Translations under genes and position numbers: made by a program
Notes under the pieces: generated by a model
Seen by the model: the letters and a program-made list of their open reading frames with translations, nothing else
What the model was told of the DNA's origin: nothing
Databases searched by the model: none
Shown: piece by piece, positions 48,225 to 57,138 of the stretch
Numbering within the stretch: position 1 is the stretch's first letter
How the letters are laid out: the number at the start of each line of letters is the position of its first letter
Assembly: GCF_022747945.1 (NCBI RefSeq)
Contig: NZ_JALDST010000001.1
Location: 2,666,001 to 2,730,000 of the forward strand
Source: Micromonospora sp. R77
Lineage (GTDB): Bacteria > Actinomycetota > Actinomycetes > Mycobacteriales > Micromonosporaceae
Reading direction: 5' to 3'
DNA length: 64,000 bases

Positions 48225-48896
48225 ATGACCGGGCACATCGCGCTGGCGCAGGCCTACGACGGCATCACGCGGGTGGTGTCCGACCTCTCCGACGCGGATC
48301 TGCAACGACCGACGCGCTGCCGCGGCTGGCTCGTCGCCGACCTGCTCCTGCACGTCCTCGTCGACGCCCAACGGGCCCTGGTCGCGCTGGCCAGCCCCGC
48401 CGAGGGACCGGCCGACGTCGACGACGTCAGCTACTGGCGCGAGTTCACCCCCGGCCGGGACGACGAGGCCGCCGCGCACGCCTGGTGGGTACGCCGCTCC
48501 GCCGCCGCCTTCGGCCGGCCGAGCGGCGTGGTCCGGGTCTGGTGCGACACCGCACCCGCCGCCGTCCGCGCGGCCGGCGCCGCCGACCCGTCCGGCTGCG
48601 TCACCACCCAGGGGCACGTGCTCCGCGTACCGGATCTGCTGGCCACCCTCACCACCGAGGCCGTGGTGCACCACCTCGACCTGGTCGTCGACCTGCCGGC
48701 CGCGCCACCGCCCGGCGCCGCCGCCGTCGCGGTGGCGGTCGCCACCATGGACGGCCTGCTCAGCGACGACGCGGTCCGACCGACCGGCTGGGACGACCGG
48801 GACTATCTGCTCAAGGCCACCGGTCGGGTGCCGCTCACCGAGCGGGACCGGCGGGAGCTGGGCGAGGCCGCCGGCTGGTTCCCGCTGCTCGGCTGA
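48225..48896 (+). CDS. Maleylpyruvate isomerase-type (DinB-like) mycothiol protein
   Basis: 223 residues. The N-terminal four-helix DinB/MDMPI region (LAQAYDGITRVVSDLSDADL, PTRCRGWLVADLLLHVLVDA) and the metal histidine in EAVVHHLDLVVDLP place it in the mycothiol-dependent maleylpyruvate isomerase N-terminal family. Many members are mycothiol S-transferases; no ring-cleavage genes are near, so isomerase activity is not implied. It is the last core gene before the accessory island. Confidence 0.82.
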   Translation: MTGHIALAQAYDGITRVVSDLSDADLQRPTRCRGWLVADLLLHVLVDAQRALVALASPAEGPADVDDVSYWREFTPGRDDEAAAHAWWVRRSAAAFGRPSGVVRVWCDTAPAAVRAAGAADPSGCVTTQGHVLRVPDLLATLTTEAVVHHLDLVVDLPAAPPPGAAAVAVAVATMDGLLSDDAVRPTGWDDRDYLLKATGRVPLTERDRRELGEAAGWFPLLG

Positions 48897-48925
48897 GCGA
48901 TTTGTAGGGCCTTATAGTTCGAGCC

Positions 48926-49036
48926 ATGAGCCAACGCTGTGTTCTGCGGGTTTGTGCGTTGTCTCACGAGTTGCCGAGAAGCCTTGTCTCACGACGGTGT
49001 CAGCTCCTCGGCCGGCGACAGCAGGGTGCGTGGTGA
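48926..49036 (+). CDS. Possible leaderless short ORF / degraded recombinase start
   Basis: ATG 48926 lies 7 nt after TATAGT (48913-48918), a good leaderless context, and opens a 36-residue ORF (MSQRCVLRVCALS). Across frames the DNA from 48926 to about 49080 looks like the beginning of a large serine recombinase (VLRVCALS as in RVxxxxLSR; later GDLAVDPSASVS, as in EDLDVSASVS), so it may be a decayed integrase end at the island edge. The resemblance is weak. The gap 48897-49232 holds nothing else. Confidence 0.3.
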   Translation: MSQRCVLRVCALSHELPRSLVSRRCQLLGRRQQGAW

Positions 49037-49232
49037 TCTCGCGGTCGACCCGAGCGCTTCCGTTTCGGCAGCCAGCACGCATGCCTGCGCTGTCCCATAT
49101 GCTGCTACCAGCTGCACCGGTACAAGATCAGCGCGAGCAGTCCGCTAGGGAACCCGGGCAAAACTGCTGAACAGCTGATCACGGGCCCGGCGATCTGGCC
49201 AGCAGGGCTTAGGCACCTCAGCGAGAGCGGGT

Positions 49233-51401
49233 CTACGGCGAGGTGACTCCCACGATGGCCAGCAGGTAGGCGGGCGCGGAAACTCTTCGTAAGGGCGCCA
49301 GCGCGTCGCTTAGATGCTCGGAGTTGCGCCGCGCGGCTGCAATGGTGGTGTCCACGCCGACGATGCGTCGCTCAAGGTTCGCGCGCTTGTCCTGAGCCTC
49401 ATTCTCCATCCGCTTCTCTTGCGCGTCCATGGCCACCTGGGCGGCCCTTTCCGCAGCCCGTGCTTGTGCCACTTCACTACGGGCGTGCTGCTTGGCCGCG
49501 TTCTCTTCAGCGTTGAGGGCGGCGTGGAACTGCTGGACCTGGGCGGTGACTTCCTGGCGTTGCTGCGAGGTGAGGGACTTGGGCGCCTGGCTCTCGGCGC
49601 GCGTCTTGATGCTTTCGCGCCATTGCAGCAGTGACTGAGCGCGTGCCTCCCCGACGTTCTCCACGTAGGTACCAGAGTCAGACGGGTGCCGCCTGATGAA
49701 GGTTCGTTCGTAGCGGCCATACCCGGACGCGGTGCGGTACCCGGTGAAGTCAGCTGCCGTGCGGAAGCCGTGTATGGCCAGCGTTCCGGCAATCTTCGCG
49801 TTGACCATGCGGGGCGGGTTCTTGGCGATGACGGCGTTGCTCAGCGCGCGCTGAACGTGCTCCGCTGCGATTTCGGCGAGTCGTTTCTGCTCTCGCGCCT
49901 GCTGGGTGTTGCTCCAGTCCGAACGCCGCTGCGCGATGCCCTGCAGGGTCTGCTGCAGGACTTGCTGTGCTTGCGCCGTCGCGGTGTCACGCTGCCGGAT
50001 AGCGGCGTCCCGCTGGCCGCGCAGCGCCTGTTGCTGGGCGGTTATGGTGGCATCTAGTTGGGCCCGCGTCCCCCGGACGGCCTGAGCCTGGGCTTGGGCG
50101 GCGGTCAGTTCTTGCTGGGCGGCGGTGCAGGCGTCGCGAGCCTTGCGGCGGGTCACGACCAGCGGATGAGCCAAATAGCTGCCGGCGATCACGACCACGG
50201 CGGCTATGACGGTGAGGATCCAGGCGACCGCGGGTATGGCGGCCAGCAAGGACACGCCGACGCCGGCTGCGACAGCACCGGCAACGCCGAGCAGCAAACC
50301 AGCGGCAGCGAGGCGGGCGACGTTCAGATGCCTTCCGGTGAACGAGTACACCGGGGTGCCGGCCGGTGTCTCGGCGGGTGCGGCCGGGCTGACCGGCGGT
50401 GTCCCCGGTAGGTGGTCGGCCAGCCAATCGGGTATCTCTGTCGCGGAAGCAGCGCGTGCTGCCGGTACCGATGCGGTCACCGTGCCCGCAGGCATGGCCT
50501 CCAGTACGGGTACCTGTGAGGGAGTCAGACGGGTGAAGGTGGCGAGCCGGTCGGCGAGAGCGGCCAGATGGGGCGGACCCGCGGCGCGGAGCGTTTGGAA
50601 GGCACTGGAGGCCACCGGGTCGAGGTAGTCGTCGGAGGCGAACAGCAGTTTGGTGTCGTCGTCAGTGGCGCGCAGCCGTCGCCAGAGTTCCGGGCGGGCG
50701 GCGAGTGCGATCAGGCTGGTGTAGATCACCCAGGCGGAGAACCGGTCGAGGCCGGGCCCGTAGTCGCTGTCGCCGCGGCGGGGATGCTGATAGTTGACAA
50801 GGCCTTTCTCGTTCGGTGGCAGCCCAGCGATCTCCGGAACGTACATGCCGTCGTAGTCGATCAGTTTCAATTCGTCCTGCCCAGTGATCAGCAGGTTGCC
50901 GTGTTGCAGGTCGCCGTGCGCGATGCCCGCCTTCTCCAGCGTGGTGATAACGTTGAGGAACTGATCGGCAACGCTAAGGAGCCGTTCCGGGTGTGAGATG
51001 TGCGTTTCCAGCCACGGCATGAGGCCTTGGGCTTGAACCCAACGCATCTTTAGCAGCGGGTAACGCACGCCGGCCACCATGACCCCGTCGACCTGATAGT
51101 CGAAGTCCACCAGGGCCGGATGGCGCAACGCTTGCAGAGCGGTGGCGATCGCGCGGTACCGCCGGTGCCGGTCGAGGTCGGGACGGACAAAACACTTGAC
51201 CGCCCACTGCTCGCCCGTAGTCCCATAGACATGGAAGACGGAGGCGAAGTTGCCCGATACCGGCTCCGGCATGCCAAGGTCGTCAGCCTTGACCGTGCTG
51301 GCCCGCAGCTGCGGGTCGGCGAAGGCCAGGCCCGGCGATTGCAGCGCATCGACGTAATCGCCGCCGGTCGGGTACCGGGCCGGTGATCTCTGCTGGGTCA
51401 C
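49233..51401 (-). CDS. TerY-P-type protein kinase with membrane, coiled-coil and HhH regions
   Basis: 722 residues. The kinase domain (~45-300) has Lys69 in AVKCF, the catalytic loop HGDLQHGNLL (Asp164, Asn169) and IDYDG in place of DFG, as in kinases linked to TerY-type VWA proteins. A Pro/Ala linker is followed by hydrophobic segments at ~362-412, a Gln/Ala-rich coiled coil (~420-515), two helix-hairpin-helix-like elements (KIAGTLAIHGFRTAADF; NVGEARAQSLLQWR) and another coiled coil. GTG 51401 follows GCGAGGACGG. It ends the operon. Base composition is below that of flanking genes. Confidence 0.82.
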   Translation of the reverse strand: MTQQRSPARYPTGGDYVDALQSPGLAFADPQLRASTVKADDLGMPEPVSGNFASVFHVYGTTGEQWAVKCFVRPDLDRHRRYRAIATALQALRHPALVDFDYQVDGVMVAGVRYPLLKMRWVQAQGLMPWLETHISHPERLLSVADQFLNVITTLEKAGIAHGDLQHGNLLITGQDELKLIDYDGMYVPEIAGLPPNEKGLVNYQHPRRGDSDYGPGLDRFSAWVIYTSLIALAARPELWRRLRATDDDTKLLFASDDYLDPVASSAFQTLRAAGPPHLAALADRLATFTRLTPSQVPVLEAMPAGTVTASVPAARAASATEIPDWLADHLPGTPPVSPAAPAETPAGTPVYSFTGRHLNVARLAAAGLLLGVAGAVAAGVGVSLLAAIPAVAWILTVIAAVVVIAGSYLAHPLVVTRRKARDACTAAQQELTAAQAQAQAVRGTRAQLDATITAQQQALRGQRDAAIRQRDTATAQAQQVLQQTLQGIAQRRSDWSNTQQAREQKRLAEIAAEHVQRALSNAVIAKNPPRMVNAKIAGTLAIHGFRTAADFTGYRTASGYGRYERTFIRRHPSDSGTYVENVGEARAQSLLQWRESIKTRAESQAPKSLTSQQRQEVTAQVQQFHAALNAEENAAKQHARSEVAQARAAERAAQVAMDAQEKRMENEAQDKRANLERRIVGVDTTIAAARRNSEHLSDALAPLRRVSAPAYLLAIVGVTSP

Positions 51402-51427
51402 GGTTGCCGTCCTCGCGCTTCAGCGGT

Positions 51428-52216
51428 TCACAGGTCGATGCGTAACAGCGTGGTGTCGTCGTTCTTCAGCGACCCGTTGGCGCGGCAGCCGTCGACGAGG
51501 GCGGCGAACCCACCGATCTCCGCGTCGGTGCCGAGATCGGACAGGGTGCGCCACGGTGTCCCGCCGGCTCGGGCCTGCGCCAGGAACCACTGGGCCAGCG
51601 CGTCACTCGCCAGCAGCAGCTGATCACCCTGCTGCCAGGCGGTGCGCAACGCCACGACATGTTCGCCGATCTTGGCGGGGTCCAGGGGACGGGACGGGGC
51701 CAGACCGGGCCGGGTGGTGAACTCGTCGGGGTCGTCGATCGGGAACGCGGTGATCAGAGTGTCGTCGCGCACCTGGAACAGGCAGGCGTCGCCCAGCGCG
51801 GCCACCAAAAGTGGCCCCTGCCGGTCGGTGTGGCCGTCCAGCAGGTGCGCGCCGACGACGGTGGCGTAGGCGCCCCGGCGCAGCCCGTCCTCCTCGTACC
51901 AGGCGATCGGCTCGCCAGCCTCGTCGCGGGCATGCCGGTAACCGGCCTCGACGTCGTCCCAGCCGGCGGCCGCCGCGAGGATCGTCGCGGCCAGGTCCTG
52001 GCCGGCGGGCGCACCCGTGAACGTGGTGGTGAGGTGCCGTGCCCAGCGTCCGGCGAGCATGGCCTCGCTGGCACCGTCGGCGACCGCGGCGGCCAACCAT
52101 GGACCGGTGACCTCCGCGTCGTCACCGGCCGCGGGTCGCACGTCGCTGGCGTCCTCGTACTCCTGGTCCGTCGAGCCGGCCTTGGGGACTGCGAACGTAT
52201 TGACGAATGCGCGCAT
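51428..52216 (-). CDS. PP2C-like serine/threonine phosphatase
   Basis: 262 residues with the PP2C core: AVADGASEAMLAGRW (metal Asp47), YATVVGAHLL, VAALGDACLFQV and the C-terminal KNDDTTLLRI. Some family metal positions differ (GASEA rather than GMGGH), as in other phosphatases paired with TerY-like proteins. It probably reverses the action of the kinase encoded 26 nt downstream. It lies 20 nt after the VWA gene, within one operon. Confidence 0.82.
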   Translation of the reverse strand: MRAFVNTFAVPKAGSTDQEYEDASDVRPAAGDDAEVTGPWLAAAVADGASEAMLAGRWARHLTTTFTGAPAGQDLAATILAAAAGWDDVEAGYRHARDEAGEPIAWYEEDGLRRGAYATVVGAHLLDGHTDRQGPLLVAALGDACLFQVRDDTLITAFPIDDPDEFTTRPGLAPSRPLDPAKIGEHVVALRTAWQQGDQLLLASDALAQWFLAQARAGGTPWRTLSDLGTDAEIGGFAALVDGCRANGSLKNDDTTLLRIDL

Positions 52217-52236
52217 GAGCTATCGCGTCTTGAGGC

Positions 52237-53076
52237 TCAGCGCAGGTCCGTGGCGCGGGTGCCGATGTCGAGGAACTGCACGATCGTGATCATGTCGGCG
52301 TTGTAGACGAAACCGCGGCTGGTGTCGTCGACGGCGATCCCCTGCTGTGCGGCGTAGGAGCGCATGTGCGGGGGCAGCGGGGAGCTCATCGAGAACAGGG
52401 TGCGGGCGTACTCATCGTTCAGCTCAGCCGACGCTCTCGGGAAGATGGTCGGCTTGCCACCTTCGCTGGACACGTGCAGGTTGAACAACAGGACGTTGCC
52501 GTCGGTGGACGCCAACTCCCGCACCGCCTCTGCGGCGGGGCGCGGATCGCCGTCGGTGGATTGCCCGTCGGTCAGGTTCAGCACCACTGGCGGAAAGCAG
52601 TTTTCGTTGGTCGCCAGGAAAGTGTTGGCCAGTACGGCGGCCTGGCGCAGCGCCTCGACCATCGGGGTGCCGTGATTGCCGACCGGCTCCACCCAGACCG
52701 GGAACTTGGTCGGTTGCTCGACCAGGCCACCGGCGCCATCGGGAACCTTCTTCATCCGCTCTTCCACCCGGGCCGGATACTTCGCGACCTGCGACAACGG
52801 CACCAGGTCACGCCCGCTCAGTTCTCCCTCGAACACCGAACCGACGCGCACGCCGTACCCGATGACCGCCACGTGGAAGTAGTCGCGGACGCCGCCCTCC
52901 TTGGCGCACTTGATTGCCAGCTCACGCAGCAGCCGGTTCAGCGCGTCGGCGACCACGTCTGCCTTGCGGCGCACGACCTCGCCTTCGGTGATCTCGTCGA
53001 GCATCGACGCCGACTGGTCGAGCAGGAAGATAAAGCAACTGGGGTTCGAGCGGCTGATCTCGGCGGTGTACGCCAC
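52237..53076 (-). CDS. TerY-like VWA domain protein
   Basis: 279 residues, almost entirely a von Willebrand A domain. It opens VAYTAEISRSNPSCFIFLLD with the MIDAS motif DQSASM (Asp20, Ser22, Ser24), then NLTDGQSTDGDPRP, and ends with a helix before ITIVQFLDIGTR. This is the TerY form found with kinase-PP2C pairs. GTG 53076 is chosen for GGAAGGA 6 nt upstream and because family homology starts there; the frame is open to GTG 53187. Confidence 0.85.
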   Translation of the reverse strand: MAYTAEISRSNPSCFIFLLDQSASMLDEITEGEVVRRKADVVADALNRLLRELAIKCAKEGGVRDYFHVAVIGYGVRVGSVFEGELSGRDLVPLSQVAKYPARVEERMKKVPDGAGGLVEQPTKFPVWVEPVGNHGTPMVEALRQAAVLANTFLATNENCFPPVVLNLTDGQSTDGDPRPAAEAVRELASTDGNVLLFNLHVSSEGGKPTIFPRASAELNDEYARTLFSMSSPLPPHMRSYAAQQGIAVDDTSRGFVYNADMITIVQFLDIGTRATDLR

Positions 53077-53208
53077 GGTGGTTCCTTCCAGGTTTGGGTC
53101 GTACAACGGGCAGGTCACGTCTCGATGGGGCGCGACGACAGCTCTGTCGGGGCGAAGGCTTACCGAGGACGGCTTCGTGTCGGACACGGCTCAGACATGG
53201 CAGCGGTA

Positions 53209-54039
53209 TTAGGGCGTCTCGTTCCACCACTCCGTCCTGGCCGGGGCGACGACCGGCGGCGGTGCGGTGTTCGCCGGTGTGGTGCTCGCCGGCGCTGCCG
53301 GCGCAGGTTGTCGGGCCGCAGGAGCAATCGGCCTTGAACACCGCCGTTCTCGCCTCGACGACCACACCGCCCGTAAGTCGTAAATACGCCGGGCTACTGG
53401 AAGCCGTATTAGCCACGCCGGCGCGGAGGTGACCGGCTGGCCGGGAATCGAGGCGATCGGCAACGACAGCGAGTCCGCCCACCGGCCGAGCGTGTCGCGG
53501 TCGACGACGCTGATGTGGCACCGCCGGGCCACATCGACGGCCTGAGCGGTGAGGTAGTTGTTCGTGACCAGCAATGCCACGTCCGCGTCATGGATGTGCC
53601 GAGCAGTTCCGGCGAAGCGTTGCACCTCAGGGCTGCCGACCTTTGCGCTGTATCGCTTGCACTGCACGACCAGCCGCTGCCCGTCCGGGGCGTATCCGGT
53701 CACGTCGGCACCCATGTCGCCAGAACCGCCGGACACCCGCACCCGTCGGCATCCGCTGGCCCACATCAACCGGGCCACCCAGTGCTCGAACTGCGAGCCG
53801 GACATGACGTCAGTGACGGCGACCGTACGCTCCTGCTGCACCAGCCGCCGCGACCGCTGAACCCACAACCATCCACTCCCGCACGCCGTCGCCAGCACGG
53901 CCACCGCGATCAGGGACGCAGCCACCGGGTGCTGTTGCACCAGCTGCATGACGATGCTGATACCCAGCAATGTCGCGCCTGCCAGCCACCAGAAAGTGTC
54001 CGAGCTGATACGCCGGGTTGTGCGTCTGCGTCTAGCCAT
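53209..54039 (-). CDS. Membrane-anchored Mrr-type restriction endonuclease
   Basis: 276 residues. Two membrane helices at the N terminus (~15-33 and ~38-58) are followed by an Mrr_cat domain (~78-190): FEHWVARLMWASGCRRVRV, then GDMGADVTGY with Asp112 and VVQCKRYS with Gln126 and Lys128, the QxK form of the PD-(D/E)xK site. TNNYLTAQAVDVARRCHISV completes the fold. The tail is Pro/Ala-rich. Mrr enzymes cut modified DNA. It heads the minus-strand operon; TACAGT (complement of 54093-54098) is a possible -10. Confidence 0.85.
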   Translation of the reverse strand: MARRRRTTRRISSDTFWWLAGATLLGISIVMQLVQQHPVAASLIAVAVLATACGSGWLWVQRSRRLVQQERTVAVTDVMSGSQFEHWVARLMWASGCRRVRVSGGSGDMGADVTGYAPDGQRLVVQCKRYSAKVGSPEVQRFAGTARHIHDADVALLVTNNYLTAQAVDVARRCHISVVDRDTLGRWADSLSLPIASIPGQPVTSAPAWLIRLPVARRIYDLRAVWSSRRERRCSRPIAPAARQPAPAAPASTTPANTAPPPVVAPARTEWWNETP

Positions 54040-54269
54040 GATCGTCTTTCTCGCGCCGTCGGTCGCAGCCGTGCGTGGAAAACTGCTTGTCGACTGTAGA
54101 GGGAGAGTCTGACGCTTCCGCCAAAGTTGATCTACGCCTCGGCTGTCAAAAACCCGACACCGACGCCTACTGCATCAGCCTTACACGCATCGCCCTCGAC
54201 GCATTGCCTTGCCGGTCAGTTCGGGGTGAGCGCGCTGCGACTAGACAGGCGAACGCGAATCTCAGATAG

Positions 54270-54296
54270 ACGCCATTTATGGCATACGTATGGCGT
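54270..54296. promoter_or_regulatory. Nested dyad in the dnaB-island gap
   Basis: ACGCCAT (54270-54276) and ATGGCGT (54290-54296) form a perfect inverted repeat, and CATACGTATG (54283-54292) inside it is a separate perfect palindrome. The surrounding 54040-54342 gap is lower in GC than the core genes. The site could be an operator for the island operon, about 230 bp upstream of its first gene, or a recombination scar. Nothing else is seen in the gap. Confidence 0.4.
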
Positions 54297-54342
54297 TAAG
54301 TGAGAGGTTATGGCGCGGGCGTGAGGACCTACACGATTCGAC

Positions 54343-57027
54343 TCAGACGATCGCCATGTCGACGAAGCGGGAGAGGTGCAGCTGCGCCGCGACCGTCACG
54401 GTGTCGGTCGGACCATTTCGATGTTTGGCCACGATGAAATCCGCCTCGCCGGCGCGCGGCGACTCCTTGTCGTAGTAATCGTCACGGTGCAGCAGAATCA
54501 CGACGTCGGCATCCTGCTCGATCGAATTGTGGGTGGCGATGCCGTTGGCGATGAAGTTGTGAGTGCCCAGAACAGTGGCATCGTAGACGTCGCGTTCACC
54601 GATGGACTCGATCGACACGATGTCGTCCCAGAAGACGTCGTTGGTCGCGTGCAGGTCTAGATCCGCCGAGTCCAGGACCCCGGCGATCTTCGCAAGCCTG
54701 GTACGACTCGGTGCGTGCTTCCACATCGTGCTGCCACAGAACTGTGTGCCGACGGCAGCAGCGAACTGCCGGTGGCTCATGCCCTGTTCTGCCAGGATCT
54801 CCCGCACGCGCGTCCAGACGTCGGTCGGCACCGTGTCGACATTTGTGTTGCTCTGCATCGACTCCAGCGAGGTCAGCAACGCTTCGCATCTCGCCGCCCG
54901 TACGCCGTGCACACCGATCTCCCGCAGGAACCGGAGCTGGTCGTCCCGCCCGGAAATGTCGAGTGTGTACTGCGGCCTGTGCCGCACAACGGGTACCTGC
55001 TTCAGGCGAGCTGTGATCCCGTACCTGAGCAGGAGACGTGAGACGTCCTCGATCATCCGGCGACTGGTGGAGGAGAAGTACACCCGCCCCCCTCGACCGG
55101 ACTTGTTGACGGTGACGGATCCGTCGGTCGCCCAGAGATGCCGCAGGAACAGGGTGATTTGCTCCTTGGGAAGGCTGAACACCGGTTGTGGCACGAACTT
55201 CTCATGAGACCTGAGCCCGAAGAGTCCAAGCTCGTCGAGCCATTCGGCCACCGGATTGCGCCGTCCGCGCGCGAGACGGTAGGGGGCAGGGAGACGGAGA
55301 GTGGTGACTCGCGTAGCAGGGTAGTCATCCCGGACCGCAGTGATCCCGAAGTGCTTCGCCGCATCGGCGACCGCCTGAAGGTTCAACTCGTCGCAACTCG
55401 CGTAGCGGACTGGCTGACGTCGAACGAAAGAGCCGTCACCCAGCAGATGTGCCAGCAGCACTACTTCACCTTCCGCCCATGGACGAATGTCGAGCGGGGG
55501 CGGCACATGGCGAGGAGTGGCGATGCGAGTTCCGACCGTCAATTCCCCGAGCGGCATCCATCCGGCGAAGGTCAGGAACGGGTGGTTCGCGGTCGCCTCG
55601 ATCAGCTTGCCGGAGGCGAGATTCATTCGGTAAACCTCACGAGTTCCACTGGGGAACACATGCGTCATGGTGCGAGGGGTATAGCGGAGACTCTCGTCCA
55701 ATGCCCAGACGGGAATGTCGCGAGCCCTGTCCGCCAGTAGCTGACCCAGAGTGACCTCGGCGTTGTTGTCGGCCCGCATCAGTCGCGTCTCCGCGGTCAG
55801 ACAGCCCGATTCGCGCAAATCAGACAGCTGCGGTCGCTTGTCCGTACGCTGCTCGGGGCCCCGGTTCAGCTGACTCACCGCGATCACCGGGCACTCGACC
55901 TCCTTGGCCAGCAGCTTCAGGCCACGGGACAGGTCCGCGACCTCCTGCTGCCGGCTTTCGGTGCGCTTCGGTGAGGTCATCAGCTGGAGATAGTCGACGA
56001 CGATCATCTTGAGGTTGTGCTTCTGCTTGAGCCGGCGTGCCTTGGCCCGGATCTCCATCAGGTTCATGCTCGGCGTGTCGTCGACGAAGAGCGGGGCCTC
56101 GCTGATCTCGCCCATGCACCGGGCGAGCTTGGTCCAGTCGTCGTCGGAGAGCTGCCCGCTGCGCAGCACGTGCAGCGGCACGCGGGCCTCGGCCGAGAGC
56201 AGTCGCATGACGATCTCGACCTTGCTCATTTCCAGCGAGAAGATCGCCGCCGCCTGATTGGCCCGAATAGCGGCATTTCGGGCAAAGTCCATACTTGCGG
56301 TCGATTTGCCCAGACCAGGCCGGCCGGCCACGATGATGAGCTGCCCCGCGTGCAGGCCGTTGAGGAGCCGGTCCAGGTCGCTGAAGCCGGTCGGCACGCC
56401 GGTCATCACGCCGCCCTGCGCGCCGACCGCCTCGATCTCGTCGAGGGTCGGCTGGAGCATGTCGGCGAGGACGGCGAAGTCCTCACTGACCCGGCGCTCG
56501 GTGATCTCATAGACGGCCTGCTGGGCCAGGTCGACCACGTCGTCGACGTCGCGGCTGCCGCCCTGGCCGGTGCCGTACCCGAGCTGGACGATCTTCGTGC
56601 CGGCCTCGACCAGCCGGCGGAGCACGGCCCGCTCGCCGACGATCCGGGCGTAGTAGGAGGCGTTCGCCGCGGTGGGCACGCTCGCGATCAGGGTGTGCAG
56701 GTAGGGCGCGCCGCCGATCCGGGCCAGGTCGCCGGAGTCGGCGAGGGCCGCCGCCACGGTGATCGGGTCGGCCGGCTCGCCCCGGCCGTAGATGTCGAGG
56801 ATCGCGTCGAAGATCGTGGCGTGCACGGGACGGTAGAAGTCGTTCGACTTCAGGATCTCCACGACGTCGGCGATGGCGTCCTTGGACAGCAGCATGCCGC
56901 CGAGCACGCACTGCTCGGCGGCCACGTCCTGCGGCGGGGTCTTGTCGAACTGGCTGTCGCGCTGTGGTGGTGGCGCGGACGACGGCCCCCCGGCCCGCTC
57001 CGTCCGCATGTCGTCGGTGACCGACAC
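54343..57027 (-). CDS. dnaB: Replicative DNA helicase DnaB with intein
   Basis: 894 residues before splicing: an N-extein of 408, an intein of 426 and a C-extein of 60. The extein has the DnaB N-terminal domain (DVAAEQCVLGGMLLSKDAI), Walker A GRPGLGKST, VDYLQLM, and the loop RPQLSDLRESG joined after splicing to SIEQDADVVILLHR. DnaB is the hexameric replication helicase. GTG 57027 is chosen for its GAGGGGGGACCC ribosome site; the frame extends to 57117. The spliced protein would be about 468 residues, normal for DnaB. Confidence 0.95.
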   Translation of the reverse strand: MSVTDDMRTERAGGPSSAPPPQRDSQFDKTPPQDVAAEQCVLGGMLLSKDAIADVVEILKSNDFYRPVHATIFDAILDIYGRGEPADPITVAAALADSGDLARIGGAPYLHTLIASVPTAANASYYARIVGERAVLRRLVEAGTKIVQLGYGTGQGGSRDVDDVVDLAQQAVYEITERRVSEDFAVLADMLQPTLDEIEAVGAQGGVMTGVPTGFSDLDRLLNGLHAGQLIIVAGRPGLGKSTASMDFARNAAIRANQAAAIFSLEMSKVEIVMRLLSAEARVPLHVLRSGQLSDDDWTKLARCMGEISEAPLFVDDTPSMNLMEIRAKARRLKQKHNLKMIVVDYLQLMTSPKRTESRQQEVADLSRGLKLLAKEVECPVIAVSQLNRGPEQRTDKRPQLSDLRESGCLTAETRLMRADNNAEVTLGQLLADRARDIPVWALDESLRYTPRTMTHVFPSGTREVYRMNLASGKLIEATANHPFLTFAGWMPLGELTVGTRIATPRHVPPPLDIRPWAEGEVVLLAHLLGDGSFVRRQPVRYASCDELNLQAVADAAKHFGITAVRDDYPATRVTTLRLPAPYRLARGRRNPVAEWLDELGLFGLRSHEKFVPQPVFSLPKEQITLFLRHLWATDGSVTVNKSGRGGRVYFSSTSRRMIEDVSRLLLRYGITARLKQVPVVRHRPQYTLDISGRDDQLRFLREIGVHGVRAARCEALLTSLESMQSNTNVDTVPTDVWTRVREILAEQGMSHRQFAAAVGTQFCGSTMWKHAPSRTRLAKIAGVLDSADLDLHATNDVFWDDIVSIESIGERDVYDATVLGTHNFIANGIATHNSIEQDADVVILLHRDDYYDKESPRAGEADFIVAKHRNGPTDTVTVAAQLHLSRFVDMAIV
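54526..55803 (-). mobile_element. DnaB intein with LAGLIDADG homing endonuclease
   Basis: The intein starts with Cys (CLTAETRL) after DLRESG and ends in His-Asn (ANGIATHN) before Ser of SIEQD, the same insertion point as the Synechocystis DnaB intein. Splicing block B is TANHPFLTF and block F is DVYDATVLGTHNF. Two LAGLIDADG-type motifs are LLAHLLGDGS and FLRHLWATDGS, so the homing nuclease may be active. GC is visibly lower than in the extein, which fits recent transfer. Confidence 0.95.
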
Positions 57028-57138
57028 GGGTCCCCCCTCGTTGCGTCGGATCGAGTCCAGCTCTACCGCCGGGGTCTGACAACTCCCGACGACCCCCTCC
57101 GGTCGATCGGGGGCCACCGCCCGGACGGTCGGGGGCCA

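Follow-up and report, generated by a model that had tools for sequence, protein, structure and literature searches.

The 64,000-nucleotide stretch of Micromonospora sp. R77 analysed here (assembly GCF_022747945.1, contig NZ_JALDST010000001.1, positions 2,666,001 to 2,730,000), called the window below, carries a mobile cassette of four genes that encode an Mrr-type nuclease, a TerY-like VWA protein, a PP2C-family phosphatase and a Ser/Thr-type kinase. The last three form a TerY-P-like triad of the YegI type, and such triads are recurrently found next to a nuclease of the Mrr fold that keeps its catalytic residues and is predicted to be anchored in the membrane. We give about even chances to the reading that the cassette encodes a membrane-tethered nuclease defence controlled by phosphorylation, in which the phosphorylation control, the trigger and the anti-phage effect are what we infer. 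All four genes lie on the minus strand, in the order nuclease, VWA, PP2C and kinase, with spacers of 132, 20 and 26 nt in that order. The initial annotation of this DNA had described these genes with gaps of 20-132 nt in DNA of lower guanine-cytosine (GC) content, and both the open reading frames and the GC values (0.668 for the insert vs 0.730 for the window) bear this out. The features are as follows.

48897..54342, no strand assigned: inserted cassette; homology to nine same-genus loci ends at 48894-48902 and restarts at 54338-54345.
53209..54039, minus strand: predicted membrane-anchored Mrr-type PD-(D/E)xK nuclease (Pfam Mrr_cat 7.7e-27, alignment, AlphaFold2 (AF2) model, PDB fold matches, hydropathy).
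52237..53076, minus strand: TerY-like VWA protein of 279 amino acids, with the MIDAS-type (metal ion-dependent adhesion site) motif DQSAS at 20, GTPM at 136 and LTDG at 168 (PADLOC TerY PDLC02224 3.6e-100; motifs).
51428..52216, minus strand: PP2C-family phosphatase of 262 amino acids, with the aspartate motifs VADG, GDA, SDA and DDT (PADLOC PP2C PDLC02222 5e-26; motifs).
49233..51401, minus strand: Ser/Thr-type kinase (about 1-300), with transmembrane (TM) helices within 357-411, coiled coil at 413-522 and 612-706, and a helix-hairpin-helix (HhH)-like head at about 523-605 (Pfam, PADLOC, alignment, hydropathy, AF2).

The association between nuclease and triad was followed from the VWA gene, which was searched in 394 genomes of the class, 354 of the family and 297 further ones, some genomes being in more than one set. 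Among the 27 places of the first search, one is the window and L013, L020, L023, L024 and L027 were not widened; among the 12 of the family search, one is the window and two partial matches were not widened; among the 23 of the third, three had already been widened and L165, L176 and L177 were not. As the VWA of L165 exceeds 60% identity, 16 of the 17 loci of that class found by VWA were covered. In total, 48 VWA places with widened flanks were examined, some with less than 8 kb on one side, and L079, L080, L081 and L087, which are the same loci as L059, L061, L060 and L062, were counted once. An Mrr nuclease lies within about 8 kb in nine of the 16 triads that were found by VWA alone and whose VWA is at least 60% identical (L059-L062, L180, L181, L183, L186 and L189). 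By contrast with these close triads, none of the 31 with a VWA below 60% has one after Pfam checks. L090 is an additional triad with an Mrr nuclease, located through the nuclease search. Two candidates were discarded: a gene beside the L192 triad (nuclease hidden Markov model (HMM), 3e-5), for which Pfam gives a weak DUF4231 and no Mrr domain, and a marginal match in L065 (0.0015) with no Pfam match. The nuclease HMM derives from the family of this nuclease, and the searches cover that family only. A distant VWA copy at L055 (genome G702) has one in-frame TGA and may be broken.

Chance adjacency can be ruled out. In 12 genomes, 11 with close triads and one with a VWA at 54%, 18 nuclease-like places occur in about 104 Mb, and five of them lie beside a triad vs about 0.02-0.03 expected. 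The arrangement takes four forms: same strand directly upstream of the triad (window, L059-L062), divergent (L090, L180, L181), same strand with two genes between (L183) and convergent downstream (L186, L189). The four-gene order of the window recurs in the four Micromonosporaceae relatives L059-L062, with gaps of 14-140 nt in the five genomes. The initial annotation had named loss of the nuclease from beside the triad in relatives as what would speak against it; the relatives keep the order, yet seven of the 16 close triads have no nuclease. In a tree built from 86 nuclease domains, of which 11 are triad-linked, the triad label needs five changes, at least two of them forced by well-supported branches, vs 10.6 with shuffled labels, the tree having few columns and a bootstrap that is not settled. 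This indicates that the association is partly inherited and was partly formed more than once. Scanning genomes with the nuclease alignment gave 156 relatives, of which 80 loci were kept (71 with at least 5 kb on both sides); five have a triad in the fetched flank and 75 have none, so that the wider nuclease family is mostly stand-alone.

The four-gene arrangement is also marked by the nuclease itself. A proline-rich tail with a DWW-type motif ends all five in-operon nucleases (window, L059-L062) and none of the 75 stand-alone ones. Co-location of tail and triad was assessed by a proxy, equal size of the carrying contig, against the best 120 of 4138 VWA matches and 14 kinase matches. On contigs of at least 10 kb, 11 of 14 tailed vs none of 28 untailed nucleases share their contig size with one of these VWA or kinase matches, the window's own nuclease being among the three tailed ones that do not; for all contig sizes, the counts are 12/22 vs 1/90.

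Besides the Mrr_cat domain, the nuclease shares the active-site residues of Mrr and type IV restriction enzymes, E85, D112, Q126 and K128 being intact in the alignment. Mrr and type IV enzymes carry an N-terminal DNA-binding (Mrr_N) domain; this nuclease differs in that Pfam detects no Mrr_N-type domain and a helical TM hairpin occupies the N-terminus, and by its DWW-type tail. The layout is a helical hairpin (about 13-78) with hydrophobic segments at 16-34 and 39-57, a catalytic domain (about 81-190) and a low-confidence proline-rich tail ending in EWWNETP. The AF2 model (mean pLDDT 72.7, pTM 0.54) shows the same three parts, with a fold of PD-(D/E)xK type for the catalytic domain and low confidence for the tail. 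Its Foldseek matches in PDB, with E up to 0.001, are MspJI, EndoMS, AF1548 and AspBHI, in eight matches with low TM-scores of 0.20-0.45; a PDB sequence search with the nuclease alignment returned no match.

The triad is of TerY-P type by several signs: a TerY VWA, a PP2C and a related kinase domain share one operon and match the PADLOC TerY-P models. Pfam finds Pkinase (3.1e-10), with PP2C_2 (0.0084) and VWA (0.00075) both under its cut-offs. The VWA gene starts at the GTG at 53076, after GGAAGG, from where full-length homologues align, the listed open reading frame starting at 53187. A canonical TerY-P operon with an OB kinase was ruled out: PADLOC STK_OB matches the kinase domain alone, at 1.3e-72 (profile 2-301 of 562), and where the OB part would be, the kinase has its TM segments, a coiled coil and the HhH-like head; the Mrr nuclease is a further difference. 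The kinase motifs K69, HGD 162-164 and DYDG 182-185 are kept. Alignment and motifs thus support the residues that had been proposed for mutation, D112 and K128 in the nuclease and D164 in the kinase. Hydropathy places hydrophobic segments at 369-387 and 388-406 of the kinase and none in the VWA or PP2C proteins; with two such segments each and the AF2 models, membrane anchoring of both end proteins, as first suggested, is predicted. In the AF2 model of the kinase (mean pLDDT 82, pTM 0.45), the kinase domain and TM helices are followed by a coiled coil running out and back around the small head, and fold comparison gave only kinase domains among the 50 matches listed.

The closest parallel is the yegL-pphC-yegI locus of Escherichia coli, which has the same VWA-PP2C-kinase order on one strand and in which YegI is also a kinase with TM segments and an HhH-like region. 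YegI matches the HhH-like region of the cassette kinase (local HMM 5.7e-7; hhalign 1.9e-5), and the aligned YegI region matches HHH_5 weakly, under the Pfam cut-off. The HhH assignment of the kinase head is therefore moderately supported by sequence comparison. The two loci differ in that no nuclease is annotated in the 16 kb examined in E. coli and yegJ lies between pphC and yegI. Furthermore, a reference in PMC13232886 describes YegI in its title as a kinase lacking conserved motifs, unlike the cassette kinase. The excerpts of that paper state, citing others, that PphC dephosphorylates YegI, and that no condition promoting YegI/PphC expression has been defined. Predicted TM segments and the HhH-like region delimit a branch of triads: both are present in all 20 kinases called in triads with a VWA of about 56% or more, and the HhH-like region is absent from all 24 called where the VWA is below 50%, as judged by a local HMM whose alignment includes some of the tested kinases, with four more kinases left uncalled. 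One genome holds two triads of this branch in convergent orientation, within about 8 kb (L182, 5781-8487 and 10238-14015). In two other genomes, triads with a VWA of about 57% (L190, 8434-10284; L191, 8283-10112) lie directly behind IucA/IucC siderophore synthetase genes, which makes a metal link possible.

The cassette is inserted at a defined site. It is bounded by dnaB and a gene encoding an MDMPI domain, and each flank protein was searched in 14 genomes, 10 of the same genus. The two genes adjoin in nine of these 10, where the aligned ends lie 11-55 bp apart in six genomes and 833-982 bp apart in the other three. G542 is the exception, with no MDMPI gene located near dnaB. The nucleotide homology break points are common to all nine loci, as expected for insertion at an empty site. 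No dnaB or MDMPI match occurs in the cassette regions of the relatives L059-L062, so the cassette is located elsewhere in those genomes. The cassette is mobile: five genomes carry the four-gene set as one block, at places unrelated to each other. A repeat scan of the flanks gave nothing convincing, the promoter scan found no promoter-like site and 1 terminator-like site vs 2.5 expected, the Rfam search at gathering scores had zero matches and the window holds no tRNA. The adjoining dnaB (window 54343-57117) contains a LAGLIDADG intein; some of the other dnaB loci compared align along the intein and others hardly.

Synonymous divergence of the four genes is 0.28-0.39 against A. subtropicus (dnaB exon 1, 0.52), 0.37-0.51 against Actinoplanes sp. 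DH11 (dnaB, 0.61) and 0.62-1.32 against A. solisilvae (dnaB, 0.60). As the cassette genes are less diverged than dnaB in the close pairs, recent transfer is suggested there, not for all relatives. VWA is the most constrained gene in the three closest relatives, with a ratio of nonsynonymous to synonymous divergence (dN/dS) of 0.04-0.09, and 0.33 in L062; the faster-changing parts are the kinase linker and TM region (0.38-0.70) and the nuclease tail (0.26-0.55). In L061, the C-terminal part of the kinase has a dS of 1.27 where VWA and PP2C have about 0.36, a difference that suggests a mosaic.

Several related loci have neighbours of mobile or defence type. L061 has a PDC-S28 helicase upstream and TniQ downstream, L062 a pPIWI_RE RNaseH and an HSP90-type ATPase, and L059 a weak STAND NTPase and a DDE transposase; the two neighbour proteins scanned at L060 gave no defence match. 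L180, L181 and L183, probably Streptomycetaceae-type loci, recall the EACC1-caspase conflict systems: L180 and L183 have a caspase-SF1 helicase and EACC1 (with the caspase part detected by PADLOC alone at L180), and L181 has a caspase-helicase with EACC1 not detected. The window cassette differs, with no EACC1 or caspase match and four genes that fill the coding space of the insert. L183 (2197-11084) is a one-strand run of six genes, Mrr nuclease, EACC1, caspase-SF1 helicase, VWA, PP2C and HhH-type kinase. At L028 (8474-9703) and L187 (6489-7727), in two genomes and with no Mrr nuclease there, the gene directly upstream of the triad encodes an amidohydrolase.

TerY-P is a published anti-phage system (excerpts of PMC7699616, PMC11090510 and PMC10889362), active against T7-like phages (PMC7699616), and its tie to endonucleases or restriction has already been proposed (parts of PMC11090510, PMC4978471 and PMC7699616). 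The cassette is thus not a new kind of system, and the initial annotation overstated its novelty. Actinobacterial sets of a kinase (zinc ribbon or TM), PP2C and vWA, GAP1-N2 neighbourhoods that include kinase, PP2C and vWA, and the EACC1-caspase conflict system are described by Kaur 2020 (PMC7159879, in part). CoCoNuT systems of type II and III-A occur with TerY-P (PMC11090510, in part) and likewise tie the triad to nuclease machinery; they differ from the cassette, whose four genes show no match to a McrB-type GTPase, CnuH/CnuE, a helicase or HEPN. No description was found in the literature of an Mrr nuclease joined to a TerY-type triad that has an HhH kinase, Anantharaman 2012 and Gao 2020 being considered as cited by others.

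Under the reading of a phosphorylation-controlled nuclease defence, the coiled-coil arm and HhH-like head of the kinase would act as the sensor of invading or abnormal DNA close to the membrane. The kinase would then autophosphorylate and phosphorylate the VWA protein, the nuclease tail or both. The VWA protein could use the DWW-type tail, or else the kinase, as its docking site and so draw the nuclease into an active membrane complex, and PP2C would strip the phosphates, keeping the nuclease off in healthy cells. A bolder version is tentative and rather unlikely: a distinct TerY-P-like branch in which the membrane kinase, with its long coiled-coil arm and HhH-like head, is itself the detector of incoming DNA and licenses an Mrr nuclease anchored alongside it, the four-gene form acting through docking of the DWW-type tail on VWA, with the orphan yegL-pphC-yegI as the sensor half of the same type of machine.

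Several observations weigh against such a defence. The seven of 16 close triads with no Mrr nuclease within about 8 kb indicate that the triad can manage alone or use another partner. The DWW-type tail is missing from all six triad-linked nucleases of other arrangements and thus cannot be a general coupling route. VWA has no match in 50,697 phage records and only two distant matches in 72,556 plasmid records. Two of the four relatives have defence-type neighbours; in the window, none of the scanned flank proteins (DnaB, MDMPI-domain protein, phosphoribosyltransferase) is a defence gene. By Pfam the HhH assignment is weak, with no HhH match in this kinase.

Nuclease and triad could also be two modules that travel together with no direct control, the nuclease being a stand-alone type IV enzyme acting on modified DNA. 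This agrees with the 75 of 80 nuclease loci that have no triad in the fetched flank, with the modification-dependent MspJI and AspBHI among the best fold matches, and with a variable arrangement in which the tail is confined to the four-gene order. We consider it somewhat improbable, since the same-strand order with gaps of 14-140 nt persists in five genomes, the tail is restricted to in-operon nucleases and diverged nucleases recur beside the same triad branch. A membrane-linked response to DNA damage or stress, watching host DNA and not invaders, would suit the tie of TerY-P triads to tellurite resistance (PMC11090510, in part), the fold matches to EndoMS and a repair endonuclease, and the position of yegL-pphC-yegI near alkA and yegD. 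It appears unlikely given the patchy distribution (a VWA match in 12 of 354 family genomes, and in five of these, counting the window, at an identity of at least 70%), the insertion site and the mobile or defence neighbours. Least of all do we favour an abortive system in which the activated nuclease cuts host DNA and kills the cell, as proposed for EACC1-caspase conflict systems. L180, L181 and L183 do place an Mrr nuclease and a caspase-helicase beside the triad, two of them with EACC1, but the window cassette lacks EACC1 and caspase, and infection of Pseudomonas aeruginosa carrying TerY-P leaves most cells alive and some dead (PMC10889362, in part).

If the phosphorylation-controlled defence is real, a reversible, membrane-located protein phosphorylation would act as the gate for restriction-type cutting. 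The TerY-P triad would gain a concrete nuclease output and E. coli YegI/PphC a testable role, and the DWW-type tail, together with the natural nuclease-free triads, makes the idea directly testable.

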